From: Byssothecium circinans | Lineage: Eukaryota; Ascomycota; Dothideomycetes; Pleosporales; Massarinaceae | Direction: 5' to 3' | DNA length: 64,000 nucleotides | NCBI GenBank assembly: GCA_010015675.1 | Contig: ML976983.1 | Coordinates: forward strand, 503,604 to 567,603 | Part shown: positions 12,441 to 39,946 of the stretch, piece by piece | Layout of the letters: every line of letters starts with the position of its first letter | Numbering within the stretch: position 1 is the stretch's first letter | The notes under the pieces: model-generated | The model's input: the letters and a program-made list of their open reading frames with translations, nothing else | Told to the model about the DNA's origin: nothing | The model's database searches: none | Translations under genes and position numbers: made by a program

Positions 12441-14180
12441 ATGGACGCATACGAGAACCCCATCGTACCTGGCTTCGCGCCCGATCCCTCCGTAGTATTC
12501 GCAGACGGAATCTTCTACCTCACAACGTCTTCCTTCCACGTCTTCCCCGGTCTTCCCCTCTACGCCTCAGATGACCTGAAGAGCTGGAAACTCATCGGTA
12601 AGCTCTCCGCAACCACCATCCCAAACGATACATTCACTTAATGCGATATCGTATCCTCCTCCGTAGGCCACGCCCTCAACCGCCTAAACCAACTCCCGCT
12701 CGAAAACGCCACAACCACCCATGTAACCCTGGACACCGGCCACGCCATGGCCGGAACAAGCGGCCTCTACGCGCCTACGATCCGTCACCACAACGGCAGG
12801 TTCTACATCGTGTGTACGAACATCATCGCGTACCCGGATGGGAAGCGTAAGTCAGACAACTTTGTCATAAGCACAAGGGACATCTGGGCTGGGGACTGGA
12901 GCGATCCCGTTTACTTCCCGTTCAAAGGCATCGATCCCGATTTATTCTTCGACGACGACGACGACGGTGGGAGGGCGTATGTGCAGGGTTCGTGGCGTCT
13001 GGACCGCGTGAAGCAGCCACGATGCACGATCATGCAGTATGAGATTGACATCGCGACTGGCACGCCGCTGGAAGAGCCGCGCGTGATATGGGGAGGTGTT
13101 GCGAAATACGACACCGAGGCTCCGCATATATATAAGAAGGATGGGTGGTATTATCTGCTTGTTGCCGAGGGGGGTACTTTCGAACACCATATGCTGTCGA
13201 TGGCGCGGTCGAGGTCTGTTCGTGGTCCGTATGAAGCTGCGCCTGTTAACCCGGTGTTGACGGCAGATGGAAAGGACGAGTATGTGCAGAATGTAGGGCA
13301 TGGGGATTTGTTTACAGATGAGGGTGGAAGGTGGTGGGCGGTGGTGCTGGGTGTGAGGAATGTGCCTGGGTGGCCGTTGGGGCGGGAGAGCTTTTTGACG
13401 AAGGTGGAGTGGGGGGAGGGCGGGTGGCCGCGTTTTGAACAGGTGAGGATGAAGTTTGAGAGGGTGAAGGGGTTGGGTTTGTCGACTGCTGAGGCTGGTC
13501 ATGGTAAGAGTGCATCACTCGCAAATCGGGTGTCCAAATCAGCCACTACGCTCCCCGGCGTATCTGCAGACAAAACAACCACTTCTCCCACCACGGATCC
13601 TCGGACCTTAGAATTCATATACATCCGCAACGCTAACCTCGACAAATACCGCTTCAACCCCTCCGAACCGAGCACTGTATGGCTGTACCCCACAGCGAGC
13701 GGACTCTCCTCTCCAAGAGGGTCAATGACCTTCATAGGCATGCGCCAGCGCTCTCTATCCTGCACTGCAAAGGCTACTTTCGATCTCGCAGACCTCGAGT
13801 CAACGAAATCAGATATCAGTATCGGCTTCGCTCTATATAAAGACCATCTACGCCATGCCTCCATCAGCTTTGCTGTGAAAACTGGCGATTTGACTTTTGG
13901 TGCGGTGAACGCTACGCAGACTTTCTCACGCCGTACTTCGGTTTCTATCGGGGCGGTGGTCGGTAAGCTGAGGTTCTTGATCCATGCGTCGGCGGAAAGT
14001 TACGTTTTCAAGTACCAGTGCGGGAATGATGAGGGCGAGTTCGTGGAAGTTGGGACGGTGGCGGTTACGGAGTTGTTTGCGAGGGATTTTAAGGGGCCGA
14101 TATTTGGGGTGTTTGCAACGAGTGAGGGGGGTGAGGGGGAGTGGGTTGGGGTTAGGGAGTTTGGGGTTGAGGGGTTGTAG
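12441..14180 (+). CDS. Glycoside hydrolase family 43 (beta-xylosidase/alpha-arabinofuranosidase type)
   Basis: GH43 enzymes cleave xylose or arabinose from plant hemicellulose. Two exons (12441-12597 and 12667-14180) flank a 69-nt intron and give 556 aa. The five-blade propeller signatures are visible: the catalytic-base Asp in GFAPDPSVVF, the pKa-tuning Asp in GIDPDLFFD and the catalytic-acid Glu in DTEAPHIYKK. A C-terminal beta-sandwich (roughly residues 360-556) is typical of the long xylosidase-type GH43 enzymes. There is no signal peptide at the chosen ATG, so the protein is predicted intracellular, acting on imported oligosaccharides. The ATG at 12441 was chosen because an in-frame stretch upstream has no ATG start. 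The exact substrate is not decidable from sequence. Confidence 0.85.
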
Positions 14181-19563: not shown

Positions 19564-20679
19564 CTATTTGAATGTCTTATCCGGTATCGCCTTCTCCTCT
19601 TCCTCTAACACTCCCATTACATCGAGAGTCCATTGCTGCATCTTCTCGCCAGGCGGCAAGTACGGCCTCCTCGGCCAAAATGCCTCTGGCTGCACACCTA
19701 GCTGCTTCCCTACAAAGTGGCCTGCCGCAAACTTTGTCAGCGCAAGAGACTTCTTACACGCCCACTCGGCATTAGCGACGACGTCTTGCAGCTTCCTAGC
19801 CTCGTCCTTTTTGCCTTCCATCCAGAGATCATAGACGCGGGCTGTGGCGCGCGGAAACACATTGCCCATGCCTGTGACGCATCCGACACCTCCGCCCTCA
19901 AGAGTAGGGAAGAGGAAATCAGAAGAGCCACCATAAACTAGAACTTCTCGTCAGCAAACACGAATCCTCAAAGTGTGAAAACCAGGAGCTTACCGCTGAA
20001 CTGCTTCGGCGAGAACCGACTAGTCAACCGTATCGCCTTCCCCACATTCGCGCATGTCAGCTTCACACCCACGATGTTGGGATGATCAGCTAGTTTGGTC
20101 AAATCATCCGAGTTCAAATCAATCCCTGACGTGACCCCAGGGAAATTGTAAATCACCACGGGAAGTGGTGACTCGTCGGCAACATCTCGATAAAACCCAA
20201 GAAGAGCCTCTTCCGACACGGCCTTTGCCCAGAAACTCGGGGGTAGGAGAAGCGCAAAACTGGCTCCGGCGTCGTATGCGTCTTTGGCAAGTTCTATCGA
20301 CTCGTTGGTGCTCTGCCCGCTGACACCGGCGACGATGGGGTAGTTTGGCACGCCGAGGTCTGCGTGGGGTTAATTCGACCGTTGCTCTCTGGATGAAAAG
20401 CTAGGGCACTTGGGGTACTGGCATACCTGTCACGGCTTTTCGCACTGTTCGCAATACGTCTTTCTTTTCCTCCCGACTCAGCAACACAGCTTCGCCATTT
20501 GTTCCTTGATACACTAGTCCGTGTTGACCGGCCCGGACAAGGTACTGGCAGTGCTTGTACATGGCATCCAAATCGATTTCCTGCTGTTTTGTTGCCTTGT
20601 ACAAAGATATCACGGGTGTATACACCCCGGGCGGCAACATCGTCTTCTTTGGAGGTATTGTGGATTTCGTGACGGGCAT
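19564..20679 (-). CDS. DapA-family lyase/aldolase (DHDPS/2-keto-3-deoxy acid aldolase-like)
   Basis: Members of this class I aldolase family form a Schiff base with pyruvate-type substrates. Three exons (20679-20427, 20359-19994 and 19937-19564) with consistent phases give 330 aa. The N-terminal barrel shows LPPGVYTPVISL and the GTNGEAVLLSREE loop. The middle contains the Tyr of VVIYNFPG and the Schiff-base Lys in IVGVKLT. The C-terminal helices follow GGGVGCVTGMGNVFP. Fungal relatives include the L-threo-3-deoxyhexulosonate aldolase of galacturonate breakdown and 4-hydroxy-2-oxoglutarate aldolase-like enzymes; I cannot separate these. It stands 450 bp from the DUF1537 kinase gene on the same strand, which fits a role in acid-sugar catabolism. 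Confidence 0.85.
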
Positions 20680-21126
20680 TGCTACGATTTTGCTAATGGA
20701 GCTTGTTGACGATATATGAGGATATATTAGGACTGTGGTAATAAGAGGAGGAATACGACTGCAGTGTTGGAAAGACGTTCGCGGACTGCAGTAGAAGAGA
20801 CGATGAAAGGAGGGTTTTGCCCGCGGCGGCTACATTCCGAACATTTCGAGCGCATTTCCGAAGCTCGGAAACTTGTCCTTTGGGTCACGCATGACATTTG
20901 CGGGGTTTCCTGTCGGAGAAGGAGGAGAGCTGGATAGAGAGGGTTATCGGAGAGAAGGCCGAATGGAGAGTGAGTCATGACGTTGTACTAGCGTACAATA
21001 GCTGAATCGCGCAATAACGAAGGTTGTGAATCTCAGTCACCAGAAGTAGGGGAGTAATGTGTTTGCAAAGTTTGTGTAGAGCATACGGAGTGATTCACTA
21101 CCTTATGGTAAAATCATTCGCCGTTT
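20680..21126. promoter_or_regulatory. Spacer between aldolase and DUF1537 kinase genes
   Basis: 447 bp holding the aldolase promoter and the kinase 3' flank, both genes on the minus strand. No gene or clear motif is seen. Confidence 0.35.
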
Positions 21127-22623
21127 CTAAGCCCTCCATCGCGCAACAACCTCGTACAAAGTCTCATCGCTACCAACATTACCCGGAAACACCACATAGG
21201 GTAATCCCGGATGCTTGCAAGTCTCCTCATCGCATCGCCAAAGCGGCACACCGGCAGCAGCCTGCCCTACAATCATCGCCCGCTTCATTCCCAGGCCCTT
21301 GGTTGCCATATCACTGCTCGTAATCCCCCCTTTCGCGATGACATATCTCGGCTTCGTTTGGAGTCGCTTGAGGAAGGAGACGAGGGCTGCGGCAACTGTG
21401 GCACCGATATCGAGTGACGAGCGCTCATCTGCGCCCACAACGAGCTTACGCGATGTCATGATGAGGACGTCTTGTGGCCTTTGGAGTTCGGATTCCGCCG
21501 TGTTGAGGGCATGCTGTAGTTTAGCTTCTGCGCTGTCGGCCGATTTGAGCAGCTTATTGACATTAAGCTCGACTGTTGTGAGGCGGTCTCCAGACTTGTC
21601 GCGCAGAGCTTTGAGTTGAGAGGTCGTCTTAGGAACATAGGATCCCGCTATTATAAGACCACCCCTCGAAGGATCGAGCGTAAGTTGTTTTGCAGAGATG
21701 AGAGGAATCGGTGAAATGCCCAGCCGTGTAGAGACAAACGCAGCCCCAGAGCGGAACAGAAACTTCTTTCCTTGAGCTGAGGCTTTAAGAATGCCTAATA
21801 TGACGACGTCCATATCCTCCTCTGCAGCCGAATTCACAATGAAAACAGTACCCTTCTGTGCACTCAGCAGGATCTCGCCAACCTTTTGCGAGCCACCCAA
21901 ACGAATGTCTTCCAGTCCAATACCCTGCGCTCTTTCCCTAGCGATAGCTCCTTTGGACTTCTCCACCACCCAGTCTCGCAAATCACTACTCTTGTACCCG
22001 AACATCGCATCTTTGGCAAACGGCGTCTCGCCAGCAGGAACCAGCGTATCCCCTTCAGCCACATAGTGCACATTGTCAATGGTGTACCTCCCCCCTTGGA
22101 GGAAAAAGGGCGCCAGTATCCACGCATTGCTCTGGCCCAGAACTTCCTCTACGACCTCGGGCTCCAGTGGGAAGTGGCCGCGCAGTGTTGAGTCGCCTCT
22201 CAGGACGACCTCGAAACTCTTACCAGCTTTCAGAGCTGCTTCTTTCAGGTTCGTGCATATTTCAACCATTAGTGCGCGGGCCTCAGGTGGATGTAGAGCT
22301 CGCGAATTGGTGAGGATGAAGAATCCGCTTCCGGCACGTGTTTGCTTGAATTCGTCGATGAGGACGGGTATGCTCCATGTGGTGAGCACGACGATGTCGT
22401 TGCATGTTTGGGTGCCTGTTGGATCATCGTCGAGGGCGACTAGGATGGGTATGTTTGGGTTTGTTTGGATTTCTTGACGTGTGAGCGAGCGGAGTTGTTC
22501 TGATGACGCCTCAAGATGTGGGAGGGATGCGAGTGTTGCTTGGAGAGGCAGTGGTGACGGCGACATTTTCGATACTGGGGTTCTTTGTGCTGGCAAAAGC
22601 TCAAGAAGCTTCTGCTGGGTCAT
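21127..22623 (-). CDS. Four-carbon acid sugar kinase family protein (DUF1537, OtnK/DtnK-like)
   Basis: In bacteria this family phosphorylates 3-oxo-tetronate, D-threonate and related acid sugars with ATP. Single exon, 498 aa. The N-terminal domain carries the diagnostic LDDDPTGTQT loop and VLRGDSTLRGHFPLEP, which fit the acid-sugar-binding domain. The C-terminal nucleotide-binding domain shows GGLIIAGSYVPKTTSQL, YVIAKGGITSSDMATKGL and VVFPGNVGSDETL near the end. Length is a little above bacterial homologues because of about 50 extra N-terminal residues. An internal Met at 22566 is an alternative start and gives an N-terminus more like other fungal copies. Neighbours (DenD-like dehydrogenase, aldolase, reductase) support a tetronate-type substrate. 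The precise substrate is unknown. Confidence 0.88.
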   Translation of the reverse strand: MTQQKLLELLPAQRTPVSKMSPSPLPLQATLASLPHLEASSEQLRSLTRQEIQTNPNIPILVALDDDPTGTQTCNDIVVLTTWSIPVLIDEFKQTRAGSGFFILTNSRALHPPEARALMVEICTNLKEAALKAGKSFEVVLRGDSTLRGHFPLEPEVVEEVLGQSNAWILAPFFLQGGRYTIDNVHYVAEGDTLVPAGETPFAKDAMFGYKSSDLRDWVVEKSKGAIARERAQGIGLEDIRLGGSQKVGEILLSAQKGTVFIVNSAAEEDMDVVILGILKASAQGKKFLFRSGAAFVSTRLGISPIPLISAKQLTLDPSRGGLIIAGSYVPKTTSQLKALRDKSGDRLTTVELNVNKLLKSADSAEAKLQHALNTAESELQRPQDVLIMTSRKLVVGADERSSLDIGATVAAALVSFLKRLQTKPRYVIAKGGITSSDMATKGLGMKRAMIVGQAAAGVPLWRCDEETCKHPGLPYVVFPGNVGSDETLYEVVARWRA

Positions 22624-22796
22624 CGGAATACTTAAACTCTGATCAACATACTATTGGCTACGAGTCTACCGAAGTCCAACTAGAGCTCTTCGCGGGGTTG
22701 TAGTGGGACTCGGTCAGAAGACCGAGAACCCCTCCCTTCACAAGTTTACGTGCAATTCCGTTGAAATTTGAGTGCAACTGATAATCAATTATTATT

Positions 22797-23819
22797 CTAC
22801 ATAGCTTGTAAACTTCTAGGCTTGTACACCTCTTCGAGATATCTACACTCCTCGTCCGTCAACTCCACACCCAAAGCCTCCATTATCTGCTCTACGCGCT
22901 GAACACTCGTCAGCCCAACGATCGGCGAACACCCCTTCCTTAAAACCCAAGCTGTAGCAATAGAAGCCATGCTACATCCCTTCTTCTTGCTCAATTCCTC
23001 AACCCTCTGTATAATCTCAGGGTTTGCATCGCCAAACCACTTCTTCGTCTTTGCGTCCGCCTCGTTCCTACTGCTTGTAGCCCCGGCAGGTTTCCCCAGC
23101 ATGCCTCTTGCTAGGGGACTCCACGGTATGATACCAATGCCCTCAGATTCACAGAATGGAATCATTTCGCGCTCTTCCTCGCGGTATAGGAGGTTGTAAA
23201 ATGGTTGCATTGATACGAACGACGTCCATCCGTTCAGTTTGGCGGTATATTGCAAACGTGCGAATTCCCAAGTGTACATGGACGAAGCACCAAGATACCG
23301 TACTTTGCCCATGCACACGAGGTCGTGGAGCGCACGCATAATCTCCGCCGGTTGAGTGTCACGGTCTAGACGATGCAGCTGCAAGACGTCGATGTACGAC
23401 GTCCCAAGTCGGTCTAGAGATGCGTCTACAGCGTCGAAGATATGTTTTCGTGAGAGCCCCATTTGGTTCACCAGCTCGCGGGAATAGGGATCGGGCGGTT
23501 GTGGTCGACTATCGTCGTCCATCACTGGGTAGTATAGCTTGGTCATGATCACCACGCGCGATCTGGGCATGCTGAATTTCCTCATGGCGCGTCCGAGGAT
23601 CCTTTCGCTTTCGCCGTTGGAATATGTGTTGGCTGTATCCCAGGTGTTGATTCCGCGATCCCAAGCTCTTTTGATGACTGCCATGCTGTCCTCTTCCGCG
23701 AGTGTCCATGGTGAGCCTTCCCATTGGGGCGATCCAAATGCCATACATCCCAGAATGATGCGCGAAACTTTTAGGCCAGAATTGCCCAGTCGTGCGTATT
23801 GCATTGAGCGGTTCGCCAT
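22797..23819 (-). CDS. Aldo/keto reductase (YakC/versiconal-reductase-like group)
   Basis: NAD(P)H-dependent aldehyde/ketone reductase or alcohol oxidase with a TIM-barrel fold. Single exon; 340 aa from the preferred Met at 23819 (YARLGNSGLKVSRIILG), 354 aa if the upstream Met at 23861 is used. The catalytic tetrad is visible: Asp in WDTANTYSNGESE with its Tyr four residues on, Lys in VVIMTKLYYP and His in DVLQLHRLD. The cofactor-binding end shows GCSPIVGLTSVQRVEQI. It is transcribed away from the DenD-like gene across about 360 bp and lies 173 bp upstream of the kinase gene on the same strand, so co-regulation is plausible. The substrate is unknown. Confidence 0.87.
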   Translation of the reverse strand: MANRSMQYARLGNSGLKVSRIILGCMAFGSPQWEGSPWTLAEEDSMAVIKRAWDRGINTWDTANTYSNGESERILGRAMRKFSMPRSRVVIMTKLYYPVMDDDSRPQPPDPYSRELVNQMGLSRKHIFDAVDASLDRLGTSYIDVLQLHRLDRDTQPAEIMRALHDLVCMGKVRYLGASSMYTWEFARLQYTAKLNGWTSFVSMQPFYNLLYREEEREMIPFCESEGIGIIPWSPLARGMLGKPAGATSSRNEADAKTKKWFGDANPEIIQRVEELSKKKGCSMASIATAWVLRKGCSPIVGLTSVQRVEQIMEALGVELTDEECRYLEEVYKPRSLQAM

Positions 23820-24180
23820 AGGATGGGATGTTGAGTCAACTGAAGACAGGATTAAACGCACTCAAATGTCGCTGCGCTGACTCTGTTTGACATCTCTTCG
23901 TAATCTTGTTTTACTACGTACAAACAAAGCCCTCGGTTGGACATGCGCCGCTGTTGGTGTCAGGTCCAGCTACGGCTTTCTCGCCGTAGGCTCGGAACTT
24001 GGAACATCCCTAGGAATATTCCCCAAAAGCCGAACGCGGCGAGAACGCTATTGGAACGATGACATACCATGGTATGCAATCGCTATGGAACTTTTCCGAG
24101 ATCAAAGACCTCAGAAAACTGTATTTTCCATTACCTTAACGAGACAAGCTTGACACGTCCTCGACCAAAAAGGCCATACA
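23820..24180. promoter_or_regulatory. Divergent promoter, AKR / DenD-like dehydrogenase
   Basis: A 361-bp spacer serves two divergent genes. It contains a perfect 9-bp inverted repeat, TTCTCGCCG at 23978-23986 and CGGCGAGAA at 24037-24045, with a 50-nt spacer, and an internal palindrome GGAATATTCC at 24013-24022. CGG half-sites are typical of fungal Zn2Cys6 regulators. The regulatory role is inference. Confidence 0.35.
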
Positions 24181-25152
24181 ATGTCTTCAAAACACATCCT
24201 CATCACCGGTGCCGGCGGTTTCATTGGGCAAGAGCTTGCATCCGCACTACTCAAAGCGGAACCAGACACTCATCTAGTCCTCGCCGATGTCTTCTCACCA
24301 CCGTCACCAGACCAAACCCGCACTTCCTCAGTGAAATCCGATTTAACACAATATACTGCCGTCTCGTCCCTCCTCGGAAGCCAAAAATGGAGCGCCTGCT
24401 ACCTACTCCACGGTATAATGTCTGGCGGTGCCGAAGCCAACCTTGATCTCAGACTCGCCGTAAACCTCGACTCCTACCGTCTTGTGCTGGACTACCTACG
24501 AAAAAACCAACCAGGTGTCATAGTCGTGTTTCCCTCTTCACTGGCAATCTATGGACCACCCGATTCTCCCGACGACATTATCTCTGAGAAAACAATTCCT
24601 ATACCGCAGTCCTCATACGGCGCCGAGAAACTCATCATCGAGACTTTGGTGAACGACTTTTCCTGCCGAGGCCTTATCGATGGCCGTGTCGTTCGACTTC
24701 CCACCGTAATTGTACGGCCCCGCGCCCCGTCTGCCGCGGCATCTAGCTTCGCCTCAGGAATCGTGCGGGAGCCGCTTAAAGGTGAAAAGAGCGTGCTTCC
24801 TGTCAGCCAGGACCTTGCCATGTGGGTGTGTTCCCCGAAGACGGTTGTTCGGAACTTGATGGCTATCAAGGACGTGCCTGCAGAAAAGTTACCGAAGAAT
24901 CGGGGTAGGGTGGTGAATTTGCCGGGGCAGACGGTTAAGGTTGGGGAGATTTTGGAGGCGCTTGAGAAGGTGGGTGGGAAGGGGGCTTTGGGGTTGACTG
25001 AGGAGAAGATCGATTCCAAGGTGGAGGCAATTGTTGCTTCTTGGCTGGCGAGGTTTGATATCACGGTTGCGAAGGGGTTGGGGATGGGAGAGGATATTAG
25101 TTTGATGGAGGAGGTGGAGAGGTTTGCGAGTAGCTTGAATAAGCCAGTCTAG
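24181..25152 (+). CDS. NAD-dependent epimerase/dehydratase family protein, D-erythronate dehydrogenase (DenD)-like
   Basis: Extended SDR enzyme, single exon, 323 aa. The Rossmann motif GAGGFIGQ is at residues 10-17. The catalytic Ser and YxxxK (SSYGAEK) are present. The long core matching bacterial DenD is striking: LHGIMSGGAEANLDL, a RGLIDGRVVRLPT run, and PSAAASSFASGIVREPL. DenD oxidises D-erythronate to 2-oxo-tetronate with NAD+ in bacterial tetronate catabolism, and bacterial loci pair it with DUF1537 kinases, as this one does about 1.6 kb away. Some fungal GAL10-like SDRs share the fold, but the segments listed are specific to the DenD branch as I know it. Probably cytosolic; no targeting signal is seen. 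Confidence 0.87.
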   Translation: MSSKHILITGAGGFIGQELASALLKAEPDTHLVLADVFSPPSPDQTRTSSVKSDLTQYTAVSSLLGSQKWSACYLLHGIMSGGAEANLDLRLAVNLDSYRLVLDYLRKNQPGVIVVFPSSLAIYGPPDSPDDIISEKTIPIPQSSYGAEKLIIETLVNDFSCRGLIDGRVVRLPTVIVRPRAPSAAASSFASGIVREPLKGEKSVLPVSQDLAMWVCSPKTVVRNLMAIKDVPAEKLPKNRGRVVNLPGQTVKVGEILEALEKVGGKGALGLTEEKIDSKVEAIVASWLARFDITVAKGLGMGEDISLMEEVERFASSLNKPV

Positions 25153-25604
25153 CTGTGATCTTCAACAGCCGCGAGAGCTCTCTGTCACTGCGAGTTACCA
25201 TTGAAGATGTAGCGTGATATTTGCCTTACCTTGCTACCAACTTTGGAGTCGTTACTGTCAAGGTCAATTCGGTCTATAACAATCTTATTGAATGGACATA
25301 AAGAAGGATCAATGCAAGAAGATCATTGCGAATTTTGATTCAATAATCCGTACAGGTGACTTTAATGATTGCTGGGGTAATCAAAGAAGGAGCAATCATC
25401 GCCACTAGTACTGAATACAGTAGGGTATCAACACAAGGAAAAAACACGATAAGGATAAGGCGCACTGGCCTCGGAACTCGAACGACTTAGGATGAACGAT
25501 TACGTAAGCGGAGCGGATTAACCTGCGTCCGAATGATTGCTGGGGTTTATGTGAATCGATGTTTGAATGAACTGCTTCTGAAATTTTGCTCACAAACACC
25601 CTAC
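25153..25604. other. Convergent spacer, no gene
   Basis: 3' flanks of the DenD-like gene (+) and the AKR pseudogene (-), 452 bp, AT-richer than its surroundings. No coding frame is recognised. Confidence 0.4.
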
Positions 25605-26730
25605 TCATGCCACACTCTCATCATCATCGTGGAAAACAACCGTCCCCCAATTCGGCCGGTTGAACCTTCTCCCCTCCTTCTTCGAGAGTTCATTCAATCT
25701 ATCCATTTCACCATCATCCAGTTCAAACACTCCCAAATTCGCCTTTATCCGCTCCTCAGTCACACTCTTTGGGATAACACTCCACCCACGACTAACCCCC
25801 CATGACAGCATAATCTGCGCCGGTGCCGCCTTCCTCTTATCCGCGATATCCAGCACCACTGGGTGCGAATGCAAAGTCGAGCCCTTCCCGCCCAGCGGTC
25901 CGAACACTGTTTGATGGATACTATGGCTCTTACAAAACGAGTTGAGTTTTTCCTGAGGCAGCAGGGGATGCAATTCTGTCTGATTGACAGCAGGCGTAAC
26001 CTTAGCCGTGGCAAGAAGTTTTTCCAGATTAACCGTCGAAAAATTAGCAACACCAATGGCTTTGACGAGGCCGGTGTCAAGGAGCTTCTCCATCTCTTTC
26101 CAGGTGTTGGTGAAGTCCCAGTTCTGCGCATGCTTTGTGCGGTCATCTTTTCCGAAGTTGGACGCACTTGGGTCATTCGGAGGTAACGCAATAGGCCAGT
26201 GCACGAGGTATAAGTCTACGTAGTCAACCTGAAGATCTGCGAGGGATTTCCGCAACGCGGATTCGACTTGTGAGTGTTGCGATGACCAGAGTTTTGTTGT
26301 GATAAAGAGATCGGAGCGTGGAATATTCGTCTCTTAGAGGACTTCTGTCAAGGCCTTTCCAATCTCTGCCTCATTCCAGTCTGGGCTGTGTAAGCTCAAG
26401 TAACCGTCTTTATCAATATGAACTCACACAAAGGAGCGCAGTCCTAACAGCAAATTAGAGACCGTGCTCTCGTTAAGTAGGAAAACTCACTAGATGGCGA
26501 TAGCCCGCTTTGATGGCAATTTTAACTGCTTTCCCTGCCTCTGCAATTTTTAGAAGTGGTTGATGCGTTACTTGATTCCATAGACCTACTACCTGGTGCT
26601 GCCTGCCATGCGCCGATCCCTTGATAGTGTTAGCTTACCTCTGATGAGTACTGCGTTGAATACAACTCACCACTGCGGGGATTTTGGCTCCAGTGTTCAA
26701 AGTAAATTTCTTTTCACTAGAGGACGGCAT
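25605..26730 (-). pseudogene. Aldo/keto reductase (GCY1/xylose-reductase-like), disrupted
   Basis: The exon chain starting at 26730 reads as a normal AKR: KKFTLNTGAKIPAV, GIGAWQAAP, EAGKAVKIAIKAGYRHL, DCAPLY and NEAEIGKAL, with introns in between. The long final part (26255-25605) has DLYLVHWPIALPP, the His catalytic region, and IPKSVTEERIKANL. Two lesions appear. First, an in-frame TAA at 26334-26336 lies between ALTEVL and ETNIPRSDLF, where relatives read through; it is one C-to-T change from CAA. Second, the first intron joins out of frame by one base: the donor reads GTGGTGAGT, as if one G were lost. The rest of the frame is well preserved, so the damage is recent. A sequencing error could explain one lesion but less easily both. 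If expressed, only a downstream fragment would be made. Confidence 0.75.
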
Positions 26731-27156
26731 TTTGTTAATTTGATGAAACAACTAAACAGCAGCGCACTTTACCTTTGTTTTCATATACAGATATATTTGG
26801 CAAAGCCTAGGCTCATTGGCTTGAGTAGTGGCAGGCTTCTCCGCGAATTCGGCGAGAACACCGCTACATTCCACATGGGGAAAGTATCTCGGCGGAAAAG
26901 TAGGCCGAACCTTATATCATACGTAGTCATTTCATCGGCTGGATGGCCGAATTTCCCTAGCTCACGCATCAAGGCAAAGTTACTCAGTGAAGAATTGGAA
27001 AGGGTTGTCACACGATCGCCAAAAATCCAATGATCGGGCATAAAGCATAACGATAGATGGATGCATGATTGATTACACGAGTGTCGTAGTAAAGAGGAAA
27101 TTCCATCTTTCGAGTCGCTGGATGTAACCCTTATCTCGCCACAAGTCATAGTGACC
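26731..27156. other. Spacer between AKR pseudogene and MFS transporter
   Basis: 426 bp with the promoter of the AKR pseudogene and the 3' flank of the transporter gene. Overlapping short frames have no domain content. Confidence 0.4.
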
Positions 27157-28945
27157 TTAAACTCGCTCGACGTGTACCCGATCATTTCCCTTATTATCAC
27201 CATCAAACTTCCTATCCCGCGCATGGAAAATTTCCCCAACATCATGTCGTACCTTTTCCTCCTCAGTCGGATATGCGCGCTTCCACATAGTCCAGATTGA
27301 ATGCTGGAACAGGTCGTCCATGGATTCGATGGAACGACCCTTCATCTCAGGCATGCAGAAGTAGATGAAAATGACACCGATGTAGGTCAAGATCGCGTAA
27401 ATCAAGACTGGTTGAACTTAGCAATTGCAACGCAAGGCGAGGCGGTTTGTGGTAACTTACAGGTTCCCCATCCCAGATGAGTAAACATGGGGGGTGTAGC
27501 CTTAGTAATTCCGAAATCGACAATCCAATTGGTGAAGAAGCACCACGCCATGCAGAAACTACGGATACGCGAGGGGAAAATCTCAGCGGCGACGACATAG
27601 GGAGCCTGTAATACTATTAGTATTTGTTTTTATAAGCTTCGCCACTGACATGCATACCACTGAGTGTCCAAAGGACCAGCCAAAAGCATAAATATAGATC
27701 CAAACAATGCCAAATATGCCGCCCACTTCTGTCCCTCCACCTACGTCCGGGTTGGCGAAACGCACGTACAAGGCAATGTACAGCATCGCCGTCGCCTGGA
27801 GAGTGGCACCGATCATCAAAGGAATGCGGCGACCCACACGATCGACAATGAAAACAACGTAGATGATGGTTGCAGCGAGTTTCACAACGCCGTACACACC
27901 CGTCGTCAACAGCGCCTGTGAGCCGCCTTGAACGCCGATCATGGTGAAAATCTCTGGGGCGAAGTAGTTGAGGCTGTCGGTGCCGGTAAGCTTGTGGAAA
28001 AGAAAGAGCATGATGGCGAGGAAAAAGCGACGACGGTTGCTTGCGTTGAAGGCAATGTCCTTGAGCACAATCCCGTAGTTGCGTCCCACCGAGGTCTCTT
28101 GCTCCGCATCGACTTGGGCACATGTCTCCATGTACTCCTGTTGAAGATATGCATGATCTTCAGGTAGCTTGCGCAACTTCATTAAGTTCTCCATGGCCTT
28201 TGTGCGGTTGCCTTTGGCAATTAGTGCTCGGGGAGTTTCTTGCACAAAGAACAACATGACGACCATGAATGCGCCAGGGATGAGTTGGATGCCGAGCGCG
28301 AGTTGCCATTGCAGGTTGTCTGTCTTGTCCACGTTCTTCCATCTGCTGACGCCGTAGTTGGTCCAGAAGGCGAGAGAGAGGGCCGTGATAATCATGAGGT
28401 TGTAGAGACAGGTCATTGAGCCACGGATGGATTTTGGCGAATTTTCGGACAGGAACTGAGGTGCACCTGCAGACATGGAGCCAATGGCTACACCTGCCAG
28501 AAACCGGCCAGCGTAGAAAATCCCAAGGTGGGGTATCTCCTGGAAGGCACAACCAACAAGGTAGAGAATGCCATAGAGCATCATCGACCACTTTCGACCC
28601 AGGAAATCGGCAAAGGGCGCTGAGAGCAAGGCGCCTGCTGCACCACCGGCTGCCATGAGGGCGGCAATGTTGCCCGCTCGATGATCGGCTGCATCCTCAC
28701 TGAGCTGATCGAGACCGAAGGCATGTTTGAACGTCGGAAGGGTCAAGACGCCGCCAATATTGCCTTGGTCAAATCCGTAGGCGCAGCCGGCAAAGGCAAT
28801 GGTGGCTGCCAGATAAGCCAGGCGGCCGTTGAATATTTCGCGAGGGTCGCTTCGTGCCTCGGGAGAGACCCTGAGTTGTAGTGTTAGGCGACAAATGTAT
28901 CAGAAGCAATGTTATGACATACCAGATACTTGTTCCGCCACCCAT
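27157..28945 (-). CDS. MFS sugar transporter (sugar porter family)
   Basis: Plasma-membrane sugar or acid-sugar:proton symporter by family. Four exons (28945-28923, 28870-27658, 27605-27461 and 27407-27157) give 543 aa with consistent phases. Twelve membrane segments are expected. Signatures are GFDQGNIGGV in helix 1, the loop DFLGRKWS, the GRFLAGVAIGSMSAGAPQFL sugar-porter motif in helix 4, ETPRALIAKGN at the end of helix 6, DRVGRR in the second half and PEMKGRSIESMDDLF at the end of helix 12. A short hydrophilic tail follows. The first exon is 23 nt (MGGGTSIW) and would be missed by ORF scanning. It is divergent from the BNR gene. The substrate cannot be read from sequence. Confidence 0.88.
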
Positions 28946-29264
28946 GTTTGCTGTTTTGTAAGGACTAGGAATGTCTGTGAGGACCCATCTCTTCAACACG
29001 GTCAAGGCCCTCTTTATACCGCGAGCCTGCAATCAGACAGGGCGGCAATTCACCGCCGACCCCAGATACAGCACGATTTCCCCAGTCTTTTCCCCGCGAT
29101 GAGGAGTTCGGAGACTTGTCCGTAGTGCGGGGTTTCCATTGGGCTAACACGGGCCGATAGGAGCACAACGGGGAATCTTATCCGAGTCAAGATTGTCGCT
29201 TATTAGCTTATTTAATGTTAAAGCGAGGTGATCTCAAGTAACTATTATGCACTGAATCTTTGGC
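28946..29264. promoter_or_regulatory. Divergent promoter, MFS transporter / BNR protein
   Basis: A 319-bp spacer between divergent genes. It contains a perfect palindrome GGCGG-N7-CCGCC at 29041-29057, which includes CGG-N7-CCG, a form recognised by fungal Zn2Cys6 regulators. That a cluster regulator binds here is inference. Confidence 0.4.
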
Positions 29265-30416
29265 ATGGCCAACTTCAATACCGAACTCGATGTACGCTCA
29301 GAGGAGCCGTACTTTGCATCGAATTATATACCCGCTTCTACGGTCCAGGTCCACGCCTCGAATCTCTTGCAGCTCGCAAATGGCGACCTACTCTGTGCAT
29401 GGTTCGGTGGATCACAGGAAGGGCTTTCAGACATCTGCGTTCATCTATCACGTCTTCGAAAAGGATCCCGAACATGGTCCGCGCCGGTCAAGGTTTCCGA
29501 TGATCCCAATCGCAGCGAACAAAACCCAGTACTGTTCCTGAATCCTGAAACGAAAGAATTGTGGCTCCTATATACGGCCCAGCCCGCAGGCAACCAGGAC
29601 AAGGCTGTTGTGCGATTTCGCGTCTCAAAGGATGAAGGCCAAACTTGGGGTCCTGTGAAGAATCTACTCGACGACGAAGGCTTGTTCATCAGGCAACCGA
29701 TTACAGTCCTAAAAGACGGTACTTGGGTCTTACCCGCATGGTATTGTCGCACTCCCCCGGAATACCGATGGATCGGTAACGATGACATCTCGGTTATCAA
29801 ATACACCCAGGACGCTGGGAAGACATGGCACGAGAAAGAGGTCCCCAACTCGACTGGAAGCGTCCACATGAATATAAAGCCTCTACCCGACGGAACATTT
29901 ATTGCATTCTACCGCTCGAGATGGGCAGATCACATTTACACTTCCACATCCGCGAATGGATTGGACTGGACTGCACCCACGCCGACATCACTTCCCAACC
30001 CCAACTCGGGCATCTGCTTTGACACACTTCCCGACGGCCGCATCATCATCGTATACAACGACTCAAAGTTTCAACCTGGACAGGCCAAGCGCGAGGGACT
30101 TTATGATGATATCACTCCTGAAGATGATAAACGCGAAAATCAACCCAAGGAAACAAAAGAAGCCATCTGGGGGGTACCGAGGAAAACGCTCACTGTCGGT
30201 GTGAGCGCTGATCTTGGAAAGACGTGGACGACCAAGGTGTTTCAGGAAGGCGATGGATTTTGTATGACGAATAATTCACGGTCAAGGGAGAATAGAGAGC
30301 TGAGCTACCCGAGTATATGGATCGATGGTAACACTGTCAATGTTGCTTTTACTTTCTGGAGACAGATGATTAAGTTTTGCCGATTTGATCTGGGCTGGAT
30401 TGAGAATCAGGCGTAG
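29265..30416 (+). CDS. BNR/Asp-box sialidase-fold protein (predicted neuraminidase-like family)
   Basis: Single exon, 383 aa, a six-blade propeller by family (BNR_2 type). Asp-box motifs (SxDxGxTW-like) are visible in VSKDEGQTWG, YTQDAGKTWH and VSADLGKTWT, with a divergent SANGLDWT between them. The N-terminal CAWFGGSQEG and central RQPITVLKDGTWVLPAWY match bacterial predicted-neuraminidase proteins. The FRIP arginine motif of true sialidases is not seen near the N-terminus, and there is no signal peptide. A cytosolic glycan- or glycoside-active enzyme with a different substrate is therefore more likely than a sialidase. Its position beside a sugar transporter in an acid-sugar block supports a carbohydrate role. 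Confidence 0.8.
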   Translation: MANFNTELDVRSEEPYFASNYIPASTVQVHASNLLQLANGDLLCAWFGGSQEGLSDICVHLSRLRKGSRTWSAPVKVSDDPNRSEQNPVLFLNPETKELWLLYTAQPAGNQDKAVVRFRVSKDEGQTWGPVKNLLDDEGLFIRQPITVLKDGTWVLPAWYCRTPPEYRWIGNDDISVIKYTQDAGKTWHEKEVPNSTGSVHMNIKPLPDGTFIAFYRSRWADHIYTSTSANGLDWTAPTPTSLPNPNSGICFDTLPDGRIIIVYNDSKFQPGQAKREGLYDDITPEDDKRENQPKETKEAIWGVPRKTLTVGVSADLGKTWTTKVFQEGDGFCMTNNSRSRENRELSYPSIWIDGNTVNVAFTFWRQMIKFCRFDLGWIENQA

Positions 30417-30972: not shown

Positions 30973-32637
30973 ATGGCGACTAAAGCCTTTCCCTTGACAG
31001 AGATCCAATCGCACAACTCTGAAACAGACTGCTGGATAGCAATCAGCAACCGAGTTTGGGATGTAACTGAGTTTTTGAGCATGCATCCCGGGGGTCCTGA
31101 AGGTATGTCTTGTGGCCTCCATCTATCATGTGACTGTTGGAAAGCTAATGGCCTTCAGTGATACTCAAATATGCCGGACAAGATGCGACAAGAGCTTACG
31201 AAGAAGTGCATGCACCCAGCATGCTCGAAGAAACCCTAGCAGCAGATAGGTTAATCGGTGACTTACTACCATCAAACGACGCTTCTCAGGAATAGACGAA
31301 TGTCAAAGACTTCGAAACGCAGTCGGCACTTGTTCCACAGCCAACAACTGTATTCCAACCCGTAACGCAAGCATCGATCACATTCCAGAAGCCGCATTTA
31401 CATTCGCTCATTTCAGCCGCCGATTTCCAAGAAGTGGCTCGACACACTCTCACGCCGAAAGCATGGGCGTTCTACTCCAGCGCAGCCACAGACCTCGTTA
31501 CACACGGCATGAACAAGTCGATCACGCGGCGTATCATGCTGCGGCCACAAGTCCTTCGCAATGTCAAGACTGTCTCTATGAAGCGCAAGATTCTAGGCTG
31601 CGAATCCTCGGCACCATTCTTCATCTCTCCAGCAGCAATGGGTCGCCTAGCACATCCAGACGGCGAATGTGCTCTAGCTCGTAGCTGCGCCAACGAAGAC
31701 CTCATCCAATGCATATCATCCAATGCCTCATACCCCCTCTCCTCCATCGTGAATGCCGGTCGCGAAAATCAGCCCTTCTTCCTCCAGCTATATGTTAACA
31801 GCGATCGATCCAAGACTTCCGAGCTCCTTAAAAAAGCCGCATCGTATGGCATCAAAGCCATTATGGTCACTGTCGATGCTCCGGTACCCGGTAAGCGCGA
31901 AGCTGACGAGAGAATTGCGGCGGAGGATGTCGCGAGTGCAATTTCTGGTGCGGTTGCGAGCAATGATAAGAAGGGTGGTGGGATGGGAAGGCTCATGGCG
32001 CAATATGTCGACAAGACTCTAGTATGGGATGACATCCAATGGATTCGAGAAGTTTCTGGGTTGTCGGTCGTTCTGAAGGGTGTCCAAAGTGCGGCGGATG
32101 CCGTGAAGGCTCTGGAATATAAAGCGGATGGAATCATGTTGAGCAATCATGGAGGCAGATCATTAGATGGGTGAGTGCTATTTTTGTTACTGAGAATGAC
32201 CGTCGAAACTGACCAAAGTTCAGAGCACAACCGACGCTCTTGCTCCTACTGGAGTTGCATCGTGTCTGTCCAGAAATCTTCGACAAAATGGAAGTATACA
32301 TCGACGGCGGCTTTGAGCGCGGCTCGGACATTTTGAAAGCCATCTCTCTCGGTGCCACGGCTGTTGGAATCGGTCGGCCGTATTTGTACTCGTTGAATTA
32401 CAGCGAAGAAGGTGTTGATCACTTAACACAGAGCATGTTGTGACGTTGTTTTTAGTATGCAGTAGCTAACCAAAAACAGTTCTTAAAGACGAGCTGGAGA
32501 CCTCGATGAGGCTATGCGGTCTGACGGATATTGATCAGGCGCACCCTGGACTTGTGAACACGCAGGACGTGGATCATTTAGTTTCGAAGAGTGAAGAACA
32601 CCCGTACATTCGGTGGAGGCCGCGTGCGAAGATGTGA
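30973..32637 (+). CDS. Flavocytochrome b2-like FMN-dependent 2-hydroxyacid dehydrogenase, with a disputed in-frame stop
   Basis: Relatives oxidise L-lactate or other 2-hydroxy acids. Exons 30973-31102, 31159-32170, 32224-32432 and 32480-32637 encode a cytochrome b5 domain (heme ligands in MHPGGPE and VHAPS) followed by an FMN barrel (FYSSAATD, IMVTVDAP, the catalytic His in SNHGGRSLDG, and GATAVGIGRPY). In the linker a TAG at 31293-31295 interrupts the frame. Either it is a nonsense mutation (one C-to-T step from CAG), or a 51-nt intron at 31258-31308 (GTGACT...AAAG) removes it in phase, giving 485 aa. The last intron (32433-32479) needs a GC donor, with a good CTAAC branch site and AG acceptor. 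Everything else is intact, so I list it as a CDS with caution. No mitochondrial presequence is seen. Confidence 0.7.
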
Positions 32638-36139: not shown

Positions 36140-37126
36140 TTAGAATATAGCCATACAATTCGGCGGACTGCTCACTCCACCCGGCATATTCAGCGGACAA
36201 CTCGCAACGAAAAACGTCCACCTATTCTCCTCTCTACAAATCCTACTCAGCTCCTCCAGATTAAACATCTCCCCAATCGGCATCCCCCACCCCGCAAGTA
36301 GATACCTGTGCAAGAACATACTCAGGTCCTTTGGCGGATACACCTCCCACGAAATCGCATCGCCCGCTACCGCCGAGAACTTGTTATCCCAAATGAACCT
36401 CAGCACGTCTTCTGTGGCTTCCACACCGGCATGTTCAGGCGATTTCGAAGCGGCATAGTCTGACTTTTGCTGAGACGTCATACGAGTCTCCCATTCGCGC
36501 GTCATACCTATGCGAATGAAGAGAATGTCGCCGCGTTGGAAAGCGATGTTGCACTCCTTTGCAATCTCGTGAATATCGGAGAGTTTGACTTCGTGGCGTG
36601 AGAAAGTAGAGTACTCGAGACCCTTCTTATCTGCCCAACTCACATAATCGATGAGCACGCCCCGACCTGCAATGCCTTCCTTCGCCCAGTGCTGGAGACC
36701 GATACGATCACCACTTCGATCCAGAATCTCCGCTACTGTGGTCCCGCCATAGAAAATACGATCTTCTACCTTGGACCCATCGGTCCCGGGCGCTGGTTGC
36801 GAGAAGTGTCGGAGACCGTCCCATTGACTACTCTGCTGCGGGTTGAAGGTGTAGACGTCGTCGAAAGCTACACCTCCAAGAAGTGGCACGATCTTGTGCT
36901 CGCATTGCTGGCGTCCGAGGCCGGCATTTTCAAGTTTTCGTAGGTCCCAGTTCAAGGTTATGCGTTTCCCTGTTTTGATCTCCTTGGAGGCGTTGGCGAC
37001 GACGTCGGGAGTGAGAATGGCAAGTTTTCCTAGGCCTTCTTCGCGGCTATTGGGTTCGCCTATCCAGACGCGCTTTTGATCGGGCAGTGAGTCGTAGGGA
37101 GTGTCGAAGATGGCGGCTGTGGTCAT
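36140..37126 (-). CDS. Putative cyclase family protein (kynurenine-formamidase-like fold)
   Basis: Cyclase superfamily (PF04199) members are metal hydrolases such as bacterial kynurenine formamidase and isatin hydrolase; fungal ones are largely uncharacterised. Single exon, about 328 aa from the Met at 37126 (MTTAAIFDTPYDSLPDQKRVW); an in-frame Met at 37159 would add 11 residues. Visible marks are TLNWDLRKLENAGLGRQ, the signature region QSSQWDGLRHFSQ (where the bacterial HxGTHxD motif would lie; the fungal type has QWDG), GRGVLIDYVSW, and GDILFIRIGM with WE soon after. The C-terminus ends in a CPLNMPGGVSSPPN stretch typical of the fungal subgroup. It may open a lactone or amide within the neighbouring acid-sugar block, but this is inference. 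Confidence 0.82.
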   Translation of the reverse strand: MTTAAIFDTPYDSLPDQKRVWIGEPNSREEGLGKLAILTPDVVANASKEIKTGKRITLNWDLRKLENAGLGRQQCEHKIVPLLGGVAFDDVYTFNPQQSSQWDGLRHFSQPAPGTDGSKVEDRIFYGGTTVAEILDRSGDRIGLQHWAKEGIAGRGVLIDYVSWADKKGLEYSTFSRHEVKLSDIHEIAKECNIAFQRGDILFIRIGMTREWETRMTSQQKSDYAASKSPEHAGVEATEDVLRFIWDNKFSAVAGDAISWEVYPPKDLSMFLHRYLLAGWGMPIGEMFNLEELSRICREENRWTFFVASCPLNMPGGVSSPPNCMAIF

Positions 37127-38064
37127 GTTGGAGGCGAAAAATAGACCGGAAAAGCCCATGAACTGTGTAAAGTGGATGCTAGTATGCTGTACAGGTACAC
37201 TGTCACATCAATAAAACAGCTAAATAAAAGTATACAGGGACGACGATATGCTGGAAAGAGGGGACTAGAATGTGCCTCGGCCGAGATTGGCCTTTGGTTT
37301 GAGTTCGTAGGACTTCGATCGATGATGAAGTTTGTACTATTTTGCGCATGTCGCTCGTTTAGTAAAATGATGGCGCGTTATTATTGTGTGGTGGACTTGA
37401 AGCGTACGAGAAAATTAGGGATACGATGATCGTAACGAAGTTGGGGATTGTGGAGAACGTGACAGTTGCAGGGATCGGGCGTCAATTGACAGGGCGCGGG
37501 GGATGCCGCTCGAAAGGAGCTCTGAAGGATCCCGAAGATCTTCCCACGGAAAGGAAATAATCCTTCGATGCTGCAGCGCGTTCGGAGCTGGATGAACCCA
37601 TGTGTATGAGACGAGGGATCCTGTTCGTGAGAGCAAGGCGACGTCCAACTTGTCATGGTGACACGCTACTGAATAGTAAACTTGTGATAAAGTCAACTCA
37701 ACTCGAAATATGCAAAGGAAAGGCATGTGTAGGACACGCAGAAATCTTCACCAACTCCAATAATAACGAACATGTCGAGGCGAGCAAGTCCCAATGCATA
37801 TAAGATCAACACCCCCACTTCATCAAATGCAAGCTCCCCTGCCACCTGCTCGAGCTCCTAGCCGATGCGACATTCAAAAGACGACGTCCCAGTGTACCCC
37901 TTTTTTCCCGCATCAGCAATTGAGTTCGTCAAGCTGAATCTCCGTCCATCCTTGTCACGTTTTGATACGTGTCATGCATGACAGACCGTCTGGCGTGTGT
38001 ATCACTGTCGGCGACACCACAGTGATCGTTTCCGCATAGATTTGCACTCTCTGTCGTAGCAACC
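37127..38064. promoter_or_regulatory. Divergent spacer, cyclase / MFS transporter
   Basis: A 938-bp spacer between divergent starts. Short frames on both strands have no domain content. An in-frame overlap of about 30 bp contains the alternative cyclase start at 37159. No specific motif is asserted. Confidence 0.4.
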
Positions 38065-39946
38065 ATGGATACTGTGAAGTCGGGGTCCCAGACCAGTCGG
38101 TATAATCGACTGGTGACCATCTTCGTTGCCCTAGGTTCTTTTGTAAGTGGAATACATGCCTCCGCTGCCCAACCTCGTCATTTGCTAACCCCTACACATG
38201 ATTGCAAACACTAACATCTTCCCAAGACATATGGGTACTGCGCCAGTATCATCAGTTCGACCATCGGCCAACCCGGCTGGTACACGTATTTCAACCTTCC
38301 GCAGCAAGGTGAGCCAGGCTACGAGGGCGAGACGACACATCAAATCGCTACCGCCAATGGACTCTTCAGTGCAGGCGGAGCTGTCGGTGCTCTGCTAATG
38401 ATGTGGGCGGCCGAAAAGTTTGGCCGAAAGAGAACTATCCAATTTGGATGCTTCTTGTCTGTACTCGGCGGTGTTTTGCAAGGAGGAGCTGCGACGATCT
38501 CGTATGTTTGCTTGTATGCGGAGCAAAGAATAAGCTGACAAACAGCAGAATGTTCCAGGCTGGTCGTTTCTTTTCGGGCTTTGGTATTGGTGTGCTGGTG
38601 ACCATTTGTCCCATGTATCTGTCCGAAATGTCTTCACCGTTCAAGCGAGGATGGCTCGTCGGTCATCATGCCATCTTCCTCGTCTTCGGTTACATGTTCA
38701 GTGCATGGATTGGATACGGGTGTTACTTTGCAACCGAGGTGAATGCATCTTTCGCGTGGCGCTTTCCGCTGTGCTTCCAGGTGCTTTGCCCAACGATCTT
38801 GCTTATTGGATCGCCGTGGCTGCCTCGGTCGCCTCGATGGTTGATTAGCAAAGGCTTGGAAGGGGAAGCATACGAAGTGATCCAGAAAATGCGTATGAGC
38901 TCCGCTGATCCACAAGACCTTGTTGCGAAAGAGGAATTCTATCAAACGAAGGAACAGCTGAAGCTTGATGCTGCAAAGCTGGCAGCCACTGGGCACAGTG
39001 TCTGGGTTGCGGCTTGGACAAAGAAGAGTTATCGAAAGAGAATGATCATCGGTTTCCTCACCCAGTGGTAAGTATATCGAGAGCGTTTGGAGAAATATGA
39101 CTGACGCATTACAGGGGTGCCGAGTTCGCCGGCCCGCTCATCATCAATAACTACGCCGTCATTCTGTACACCAATCTTGGCCAAACAGGCCATATGCCCC
39201 TCCTCCTTTCCGCACTATGGCTCACAACCGCCGGTCTCATCTACAACCCGCTCGGTGCGTGGTTGCATGACAAAGTTAACTCTCGTCGTGGGATGTACAT
39301 TTTCGGTCTTTTTGGATGTTTAATAACCACGTCGTTGCTCGCTGCCATGACTGCAGAATACTCGGGTACCACGAACCGCGCTGGCAATGGCATGGGGATC
39401 TTCTTCATCTTCTTGTACCTCGCTTTCCAGGGTACTTGCTGCGATACGACCATGTACCTCTACGTGTCGGAGATCTTTCCGACGGAGCTACGCCCCATGG
39501 GTATGGGCTTCAGTCTGTTCGGCCAGTTCGCTGCGAGTCTAATCTTATTGCAAACTGCGCCTATTGGGTTTGCTGAGGTTGGGTGGAAGTACTACCTCGT
39601 TATCATTGTTTGGTGTATCGTGTATATTCCAAGTAAGTTCAGCCCGTCAATTCCCATTCTCTCGAGCTGGGATCATCTCTAACCATTCCTAGTGGTTTAC
39701 TTCTACTGGCCTGAAACCGCGCGTCTCAGTCTTGAAGAAGTAGCTAAGAACTTTGGCGATGAGGTTGCGGTTCATATCACTGATGCGACGGACGAAGAGA
39801 AGCACAAGCTCGATCAGCAGCTGGTTGGAGGCTTGGTGGGGAACGGGTCAGTCCGTGAGAGCCAGGAGGCTGATTCGACAGGACATAAAGGGAGCGATGT
39901 CGTTGAGGTGGAGCCTAAGGCTGGCGGAAAGACAGTGCGATCGTAG
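38065..39946 (+). CDS. MFS sugar transporter (sugar porter family), second copy
   Basis: Five exons (38065-38142, 38227-38501, 38549-39067, 39115-39632 and 39693-39946) with matching phases give 547 aa. Sugar-porter signatures are YGYCASIISSTIGQPGW in helix 1, EKFGRKRTIQFG in the first loop, GRFFSGFGIGVLVTICPMYLSEM in helix 4, LPRSPRWLISKG, the PLGAWLHDKVNSRRGMYIFG loop, the VSEIFPTELRPMGMG motif and YWPETARLSLEEVAKNF at the end of helix 12. A hydrophilic acidic tail follows. It differs clearly from the other transporter in the window. Plasma-membrane uptake of a hexose, pentose or sugar acid is expected; the substrate is not decidable. Confidence 0.88.

Follow-up and report, generated by a model that had tools for sequence, protein, structure and literature searches.

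A three-step bacterial route of tetronate breakdown is described in PMC12540250, in which a kinase (2-OtnK) and a 2-OtnC aldolase of the F_bP_aldolase type take 2-oxo-L-threonate to dihydroxyacetone phosphate (DHAP) without OtnI; for this route the paper cites Guo et al. 2024, the title of which, as given in the reference list, includes D-erythronate. The same paper reports that in plants a fused LtnD-OtnK-F_bP_aldolase protein is required for L-threonate metabolism. Other comparable systems are the four-step otn operon (LtnD/DenD, OtnI, 3-OtnK, and an aldolase-type OtnC; Aeromonas sp. BC14) and bacterial gene sets (Rhizobium, Agrobacterium, Sinorhizobium, and Caballeronia) that combine BNR, DapA, iron alcohol dehydrogenase (iron-ADH), PdxA, and DUF1537 genes and for which we found no established name. 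Here we analyzed a stretch of 64,000 nucleotides (the window) from the fungus Byssothecium circinans, in which a gene group at 19.5-30.4 kb, on contig C7 of the 48.4-Mb genome, encodes a DUF1537 four-carbon acid-sugar kinase, a short-chain dehydrogenase/reductase (SDR), a DapA-type lyase, two aldo/keto reductases (AKRs), a major facilitator superfamily (MFS) sugar porter, and a BNR_2 protein. A sequence-only reading had proposed an acid-sugar (tetronate-type) catabolic cluster, which is also the best reading after our analysis; the SDR belongs to the DenD clade, and the linkage recurs in related fungi. Based on gene content, the clades of the kinase and SDR, recurring linkage, and bacterial loci that combine BNR, DapA, and tetronate-type genes, it is probable (roughly 60%) that these genes form an acid-sugar catabolic cluster, partly conserved across ascomycetes, with a tetronate core and an upstream lyase module. 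If the core part of this reading is true, fungi own a linked DenD plus 2-OtnK-type route, which has until now been reported in bacteria and, in fused form, in plants. A literature search of titles and abstract openings found no fungal tetronate cluster; subscription papers were largely outside its coverage, and prior work may exist.

The kinase matches PF07005 (E value 2.7e-53) and PF17042 (4.7e-40), and no other PF07005 match was found in the genome. Because NCBIfam models left it unnamed (only a weak OiaK match, 4.4e-6), we assigned it by phylogenetic analysis. PDB searches gave no match with the kinase sequence alone and one weak match with the kinase alignment (4xfr, 1.5e-4). Many named ascomycetes are present among its best 120 protein matches (names are absent for part of the list), and the best 80 of 532 bacterial genome matches show 41-51% identity over the best segment. 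After 12 of these 80 loci had been dropped (no plus-strand open reading frame [ORF] with the kinase motif), 122 of the 130 neighboring ORFs in the remaining 68 loci were scored, eight others, all long, being omitted from the alignment. F_bP_aldolase is the commonest Pfam family among these neighbors (10 ORFs), five ORFs match DenD at an E value of 1e-30 or better (a sixth DenD is found in locus L086), and eight belong to AP_endonuc_2 (TIM-barrel), followed by a long tail of other families; the majority are neither F_bP_aldolase nor DenD. DenD lies next to the kinase in divergent orientation in six Bacteroidota loci, one of which (L056) also has a GntP permease. Plasmid-borne relatives of the kinase adjoin a GarR-annotated reductase and a gluconate symporter in Ligilactobacillus and Priestia and a class II fructose-bisphosphate aldolase in Rhodococcus and Deinococcus; three more plasmid matches (a second Ligilactobacillus record and two records without gene tables) lay outside this comparison.

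A phylogenetic tree of 47 kinases (27 of the 80 bacterial loci, eight plasmid kinases, and 12 fungal rows) places the 12 fungal kinases in one group (support 100/100) within a clade of 43 rows, although their precise sister is not resolved. Another 100/100 branch separates this clade from the Aeromonas 3-OtnK, a Rhodococcus PdxA-linked kinase, and two DUF1537 proteins of BNR operons. Among the 31 bacterial rows of the clade, the locus contains F_bP_aldolase in seven, DenD in six, a GarR/LtnD-like gene in two, and none recognized in 16, so that the 2-OtnK label of the clade, in a tree without any assayed 2-OtnK sequence, comes from the neighbors of 15 of 31 rows. By clade and gene context, the window kinase is predicted to be of the 2-OtnK type.

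The SDR had been called DenD-like, which holds for its phylogenetic position and less so for its score. It matches the NCBIfam model of D-erythronate dehydrogenase (NF043036) over nearly its full length with 297.5 bits, below the curated cut-off of 325, whereas DenD proteins next to bacterial kinases, scored singly in two loci, reach 468.6 and 469.4 bits. A 38-row tree unites the window SDR, its fungal relatives, a second genomic copy on contig C23, and seven bacterial DenD proteins in one clade that is split (100/100) from four other SDRs of the same genome, and the SDR is thus not outside the DenD branch; long branches are flagged in this tree, and a divergent SDR (L082) entered as an outsider was also placed inside the DenD clade.

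Profile scans of the genome revealed no match to OtnI (NF043033; six frames, exon by exon), two weak matches to the Aldolase_II-type OtnC (NF043034; 31.4 and 30.1 bits versus a cut-off of 250), and no match to PdxA (PF04166); Aldolase_II proteins as such are present. We therefore rejected the four-step otn pathway as well as the D-threonate kinase/PdxA route for this fungus. The absence of OtnI and OtnC from the window had been taken as a possible sign of a variant pathway. Neither was found over cut-off in the whole genome, but the three-step route needs neither OtnI nor an Aldolase_II OtnC, and because the kinase clade fits that route, their absence need not be a gap. A candidate F_bP_aldolase of 295 aa is encoded at C10:891296-892242, unlinked to the cluster, and no F_bP_aldolase match was found inside the window. 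It shares 33-39% identity (89-98% coverage) with 11 bacterial F_bP_aldolases of the kinase loci (25% in two more matches) and matches the F_bP_aldolase on C8 weakly and in pieces; a third, partial F_bP_aldolase match is located on C30. An LtnD-like open frame is also present on C10 (206.8 bits versus 350). When the FMN_dh gene beside the cluster was compared with ten other genomic FMN_dh places (the listed C6 place was left out), its closest relative was the copy next to the C10 aldolase (C10:893.3-895 kb; 52% over 284 aa), the remaining places having at most 36% identity over long stretches. This kinship may hint at a shared pathway of the window and the C10 aldolase neighborhood.

Compared with the described systems, the fungal gene set resembles the three-step L-threonate/D-erythronate pathway in having a kinase whose clade is defined by gene context, an SDR of the DenD clade, no OtnI match, and a candidate F_bP_aldolase in the genome, but differs in that the aldolase lies outside the cluster, that DapA, AKR, MFS, and BNR genes are extra, that the SDR scores under the DenD cut-off, and that the host is eukaryotic. 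The four-step otn operon shares the DenD family and a DUF1537 kinase, whereas in the fungus OtnI has no match, OtnC matches stay below cut-off, and the kinase belongs to another clade. Plant LTD (AT1G18270; LtnD1-LtnD2-OtnK-F_bP_aldolase), as presented in PMC12540250, also unites a eukaryotic DUF1537 kinase with a C2 dehydrogenase and an F_bP_aldolase, but as a single fusion with LtnD-type dehydrogenases rather than as separate genes with a DenD-type SDR.

Conservation of the linkage was examined by protein searches for the kinase, SDR, and DapA (best 120 of 7982, 3030, and 908 matches), in which a contig was considered shared when the size of the longest contig of each protein cluster was identical across the three lists of 120. 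Among these listed matches, the kinase and SDR are found on 25 common contigs (one being the present genome), SDR and DapA on 19, kinase and DapA on nine, and all three on nine. Near-misses (sizes 1-20 bases apart) amount to four, three, and one pairs, from which about 0.1 or fewer identities are expected by chance. A shared multi-megabase contig shows the same chromosome only, while seven kinase-SDR contigs span 13-64 kb, and in five genomes the SDR and kinase have neighboring locus tags or tags that differ by two (e.g., DPSP01_009465/009467, SLS57_005107/005108, and, with DapA, N0V89_002895/002897/002899). In Verticillium albo-atrum, DapA and SDR tags are two apart (ACHAQA_008457/008459). 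Linked kinase and SDR genes are seen in 16 named species, all of which we assume to be Dothideomycetes. The synteny expected from the sequence-only reading is thus present in other fungi, both for kinase-SDR and SDR-DapA, but not in all of them. With the kinase or DapA listed elsewhere or not at all in some species, the linkage is modular and centers on the SDR, which the variants have in common.

Several observations weigh against a single conserved cluster. No listed SDR contig is shared by 95 of the 120 listed kinase contigs, and in at least five named species (Paraphoma, Macrophomina, Neoarthrinium, Xylariaceae FL0662B, and Dactylonectria) the contig listed for the kinase differs in size from that listed for the SDR, although some of these contigs may come from different assemblies. 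Ten SDR-DapA contigs have no listed kinase, six contigs of this type being from Sordariomycetes; in Paraphoma, SDR and DapA share a contig and the kinase is on another. These counts cover the kinase, SDR, and DapA, with the BNR, AKR, and MFS genes outside that search. The window SDR stays below the DenD cut-off, while the copy on C23 exceeds it (339.9 bits); C23 carries neither the genome's one kinase match nor any of the listed DapA-family matches. In addition, the second AKR of the cluster and the neighboring FMN_dh gene each contain an in-frame stop.

Of the PF13088 matches in the genome, only the BNR protein exceeds the cut-off, three weak ones staying below; the protein is probably cytosolic because no hydrophobic N-terminal stretch was seen by eye. 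Its profile matches solved sialidases in PDB (best E value 2e-8 over approximately 100 positions), while a single-sequence PDB search gave no match. Its fold model was unusable (mean predicted local distance difference test score 32.2) and was kept out of fold searches, and a scan of viral contigs with the BNR alignment gave 18 pattern matches, none of which was confirmed. BNR relatives occur in 310 plasmid records, with identities of 36-54% in those aligned or best-listed (the highest in Pantoea). In 16 of these records, all searched by tblastn with reference proteins (four have no listed genes), DapA was found in 13 loci (14 including an annotated one in Klebsiella locus L144), iron-ADH in 13, PdxA in 12, and DUF1537 kinase in 11; ten of the 16 loci are from Rhizobiaceae and hence are not independent. 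Two Pantoea loci (L134 and L143) have none of the four genes, Roseomonas L131 lacks PdxA and kinase, Pantoea ananatis L123 has no kinase match, and Klebsiella L144 has only the annotated DapA. One PdxA relative in the BNR loci is annotated as D-threonate 4-phosphate dehydrogenase. Since most of the 16 loci also hold DapA, iron-ADH, PdxA, and DUF1537 kinase, this analogy suggests that BNR, DapA, reductase, and kinase could form one functional unit. The bacterial sets share with the fungal cluster BNR, the DapA family, a reductase, a DUF1537 kinase, and a transporter, but they contain PdxA and another DUF1537 subfamily where the fungus has an SDR and a 2-OtnK-type kinase, and iron-ADH instead of AKR. 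A further point against equating them is the identity of 25-29% between the fungal DapA and three operon DapAs. Given this identity and the different kinase subfamily, the fungal and bacterial sets resemble parallel solutions rather than one operon passed on by inheritance.

Three of these plasmids show additional arrangements. In Klebsiella (L144:7984-11445), a distant BNR relative (26%) is located between the annotated DapA-family gene and an MFS gene. In Caballeronia (L130:5025-7331), a PdxA-annotated protein of 768 aa resembles DUF1537 in a section of its first part (36% over 126 aa) and is a probable kinase-PdxA fusion. In Pantoea ananatis (L123:10506-14243), a sodium:solute symporter, BNR, and then a YhcH/YjgK/YiaL gene lie beside the ula ascorbate operon.

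Taken as a pathway, the genes may be ordered as follows, where we infer every substrate, the order of reactions, and the C10 aldolase as a partner. The MFS protein would import a larger 3-deoxy-2-ulosonic acid or its glycoside, and the BNR_2 protein would free or condition the imported acid. The DapA-type lyase would then remove pyruvate from the 3-deoxy-2-ulosonic acid, leaving a four-carbon aldehyde acid that an AKR may convert to a tetronate. The DenD-clade SDR, perhaps the C2 dehydrogenase, would oxidize the tetronate at C2, the 2-OtnK-type kinase would phosphorylate the resulting 2-oxo acid, and a class II aldolase (F_bP_aldolase, candidate C10) would turn the 2-oxo-4-phosphate into DHAP and CO2 without OtnI. 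A similar logic of DapA-type aldolase and AKR is known from the fungal D-galacturonate pathway (GaaA/GaaC/GaaD), which has no kinase and no DenD-type SDR.

A tentative candidate for the imported acid, possible but doubtful, is 3-deoxy-D-lyxo-2-heptulosaric acid (Dha), a rare sugar and seven-carbon diacid of the pectin rhamnogalacturonan II (RG-II). A seven-carbon diacid is required because the pyruvate lyase must leave a four-carbon acid, and on paper a seven-carbon 3-deoxy-ulosaric acid fits better than the other natural compounds considered with the set of kinase, pyruvate lyase, and sialidase-fold protein. BNR would free or condition Dha, and the DapA lyase would cut it between C3 and C4 into pyruvate and threuronate, which the reductase could turn into D-threonate (the D-lyxo centers map onto D-threo, as derived from the structures). 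C2 oxidation, the 2-OtnK-type kinase, and F_bP_aldolase would then lead from D-threonate to DHAP. In bacteria, the DtnK kinase and PdxA finish D-threonate, and the BNR-DapA-iron-ADH-PdxA-kinase sets may represent the prokaryotic version of the same breakdown, ending with D-threonate via kinase and PdxA; since 2-oxo-D-threonate is identical to 2-oxo-D-erythronate, in the fungus this part of the breakdown could fall to a C2 dehydrogenase together with a 2-OtnK-type kinase. Stereochemistry is the weak point of this proposal: D-threonate has the 2S configuration, in contrast to the 2R substrates of DenD. Either the SDR may have changed its preference or the S-type FMN dehydrogenase family may perform the C2 oxidation, against which stands the in-frame TAG in the window FMN dehydrogenase gene beside BNR. 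The BNR profile matches chain 5mqr, which we take to be BT1020, the GH143 Dha hydrolase of RG-II, with an E value of only 0.023. No paper containing both heptulosaric and threonate was found in the literature search, which left subscription papers largely uncovered. If the Dha proposal is true, genes can be assigned to the fate, in plant-associated bacteria and fungi, of a pectin sugar that ranks among the least understood.

Alternatively, D-erythronate or L-threonate (e.g., from plant ascorbate breakdown) might be imported and processed by the SDR, kinase, and distant F_bP_aldolase only, with DapA and BNR being separate. We consider this plain tetronate pathway rather unlikely. In its favor, Lasiodiplodia theobromae and Diplodia corticola, also telling against the composite cluster, keep kinase and SDR together and list DapA on another contig; the window DapA has no match in the six bacterial DenD-kinase loci at an E value of 1e-8; and the plant fusion protein serves L-threonate metabolism according to PMC12540250. 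The linkage of DapA to SDR on 19 contigs, nine of them with the kinase among the listed matches, and the combination of BNR, DapA, and tetronate-type genes in bacterial loci point instead to the larger cluster with an upstream lyase.

The sequence-only reading had suggested that the pathway perhaps ends in aldolase cleavage, and one form of this idea is that the DapA-type enzyme decarboxylates 2-oxo-4-phosphotetronate in place of 2-OtnC. DapA relatives such as KdgD do decarboxylate, the DapA gene lies approximately 450 bp from the kinase gene in a window devoid of an F_bP_aldolase match, and the middle DapA exon matches KdgD-type models, although far under cut-off (51.9 of 278 bits). On the other hand, its nearest solved structures are 3qfe (named putative dihydrodipicolinate synthase family protein, presumably from Coccidioides) and then human 4-hydroxy-2-oxoglutarate aldolase entries, SDR-DapA linkage also occurs without a listed kinase, and the genome offers an F_bP_aldolase candidate. 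A terminal decarboxylase is therefore improbable. Because most of the examined bacterial loci with BNR and DapA also hold DUF1537 kinase and PdxA, the end step proposed for DapA was not borne out, and it is more likely, by analogy, that DapA acts upstream and makes the four-carbon unit. Several DapA-family matches are present in the genome.

Likewise improbable is a role of BNR and DapA in the breakdown of sialic acid, Kdn, or Kdo, beside an unrelated kinase-SDR pair. The sialidase matches of the BNR profile would agree with it, as would three Pantoea loci having a sodium symporter and YhcH, which we assume to be typical of sialic-acid loci; yet such a route, whose cleavage products are N-acetylmannosamine, mannose, or arabinose, needs no tetronate kinase or PdxA, while these genes are present in 11 and 12 of the 16 BNR loci, respectively. 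A chance neighborhood of metabolic genes in a decaying region, as the two in-frame stops and the lack of linkage in some species might imply, is hardly credible given that common contigs far exceed the chance expectation and that the other cluster genes are intact.

Gene identities were derived from Pfam profiles and gene models (Table 1), which place the gene set where the sequence-only reading had it, with 1.56 kb between the kinase and SDR genes (approximately 1.6 kb claimed). Gene structure and closest relatives are of fungal type. The second reductase is indeed broken, and the gene models of the other cluster genes (seven genes in all) are intact. The stop in the cytochrome b5-FMN_dh gene falls between its two domains. 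Single nonsense codons in two otherwise good frames perhaps reflect strain-specific decay.

Table 1. Genes of the cluster and a possible additional member (positions in the window)
Feature	Position	Strand	Details
DapA-type aldolase/lyase (PF00701)	19564..20679	-	330 aa, intact; three exons: 20679-20427, 20359-19994, 19937-19564
DUF1537 four-carbon acid-sugar kinase, putative 2-OtnK-type clade	21127..22623	-	498 aa, one open frame
Aldo/keto reductase (PF00248)	22797..23819	-	340 aa, intact; candidate aldehyde reductase
SDR dehydrogenase, DenD clade	24181..25152	+	323 aa, intact; divergent from AKR
Second aldo/keto reductase (DkgA-like)	25605..26730	-	In-frame TAA at 26336-26334
MFS sugar-porter transporter	27157..28945	-	543 aa, four exons, intact
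BNR_2 (sialidase-fold) protein	29265..30416	+	PF13088 8.1e-64; 383 aa, intact
Cytochrome b5 + FMN_dh 2-hydroxyacid dehydrogenase-like gene; possible extra member	30973..32637	+	In-frame TAG at 31293-31295; end read by eye

The N-terminus of the P0049 kinase gene model weakly matches the C-terminal part of the window AKR (34% over 71 aa). Approximately 5.4 kb from the DapA gene, a glycoside hydrolase family 43 gene is found at 12642-14177 (+) (PF04616, 2.8e-53; GH43_C2), which could be part of a common plant cell-wall theme. Farther downstream in the window are a PF04199 cyclase gene at 36143-37207 (-), a family also seen in three of the 122 ORFs around the closest bacterial kinases, and another sugar-transporter-like frame at 39101-39679 (+).

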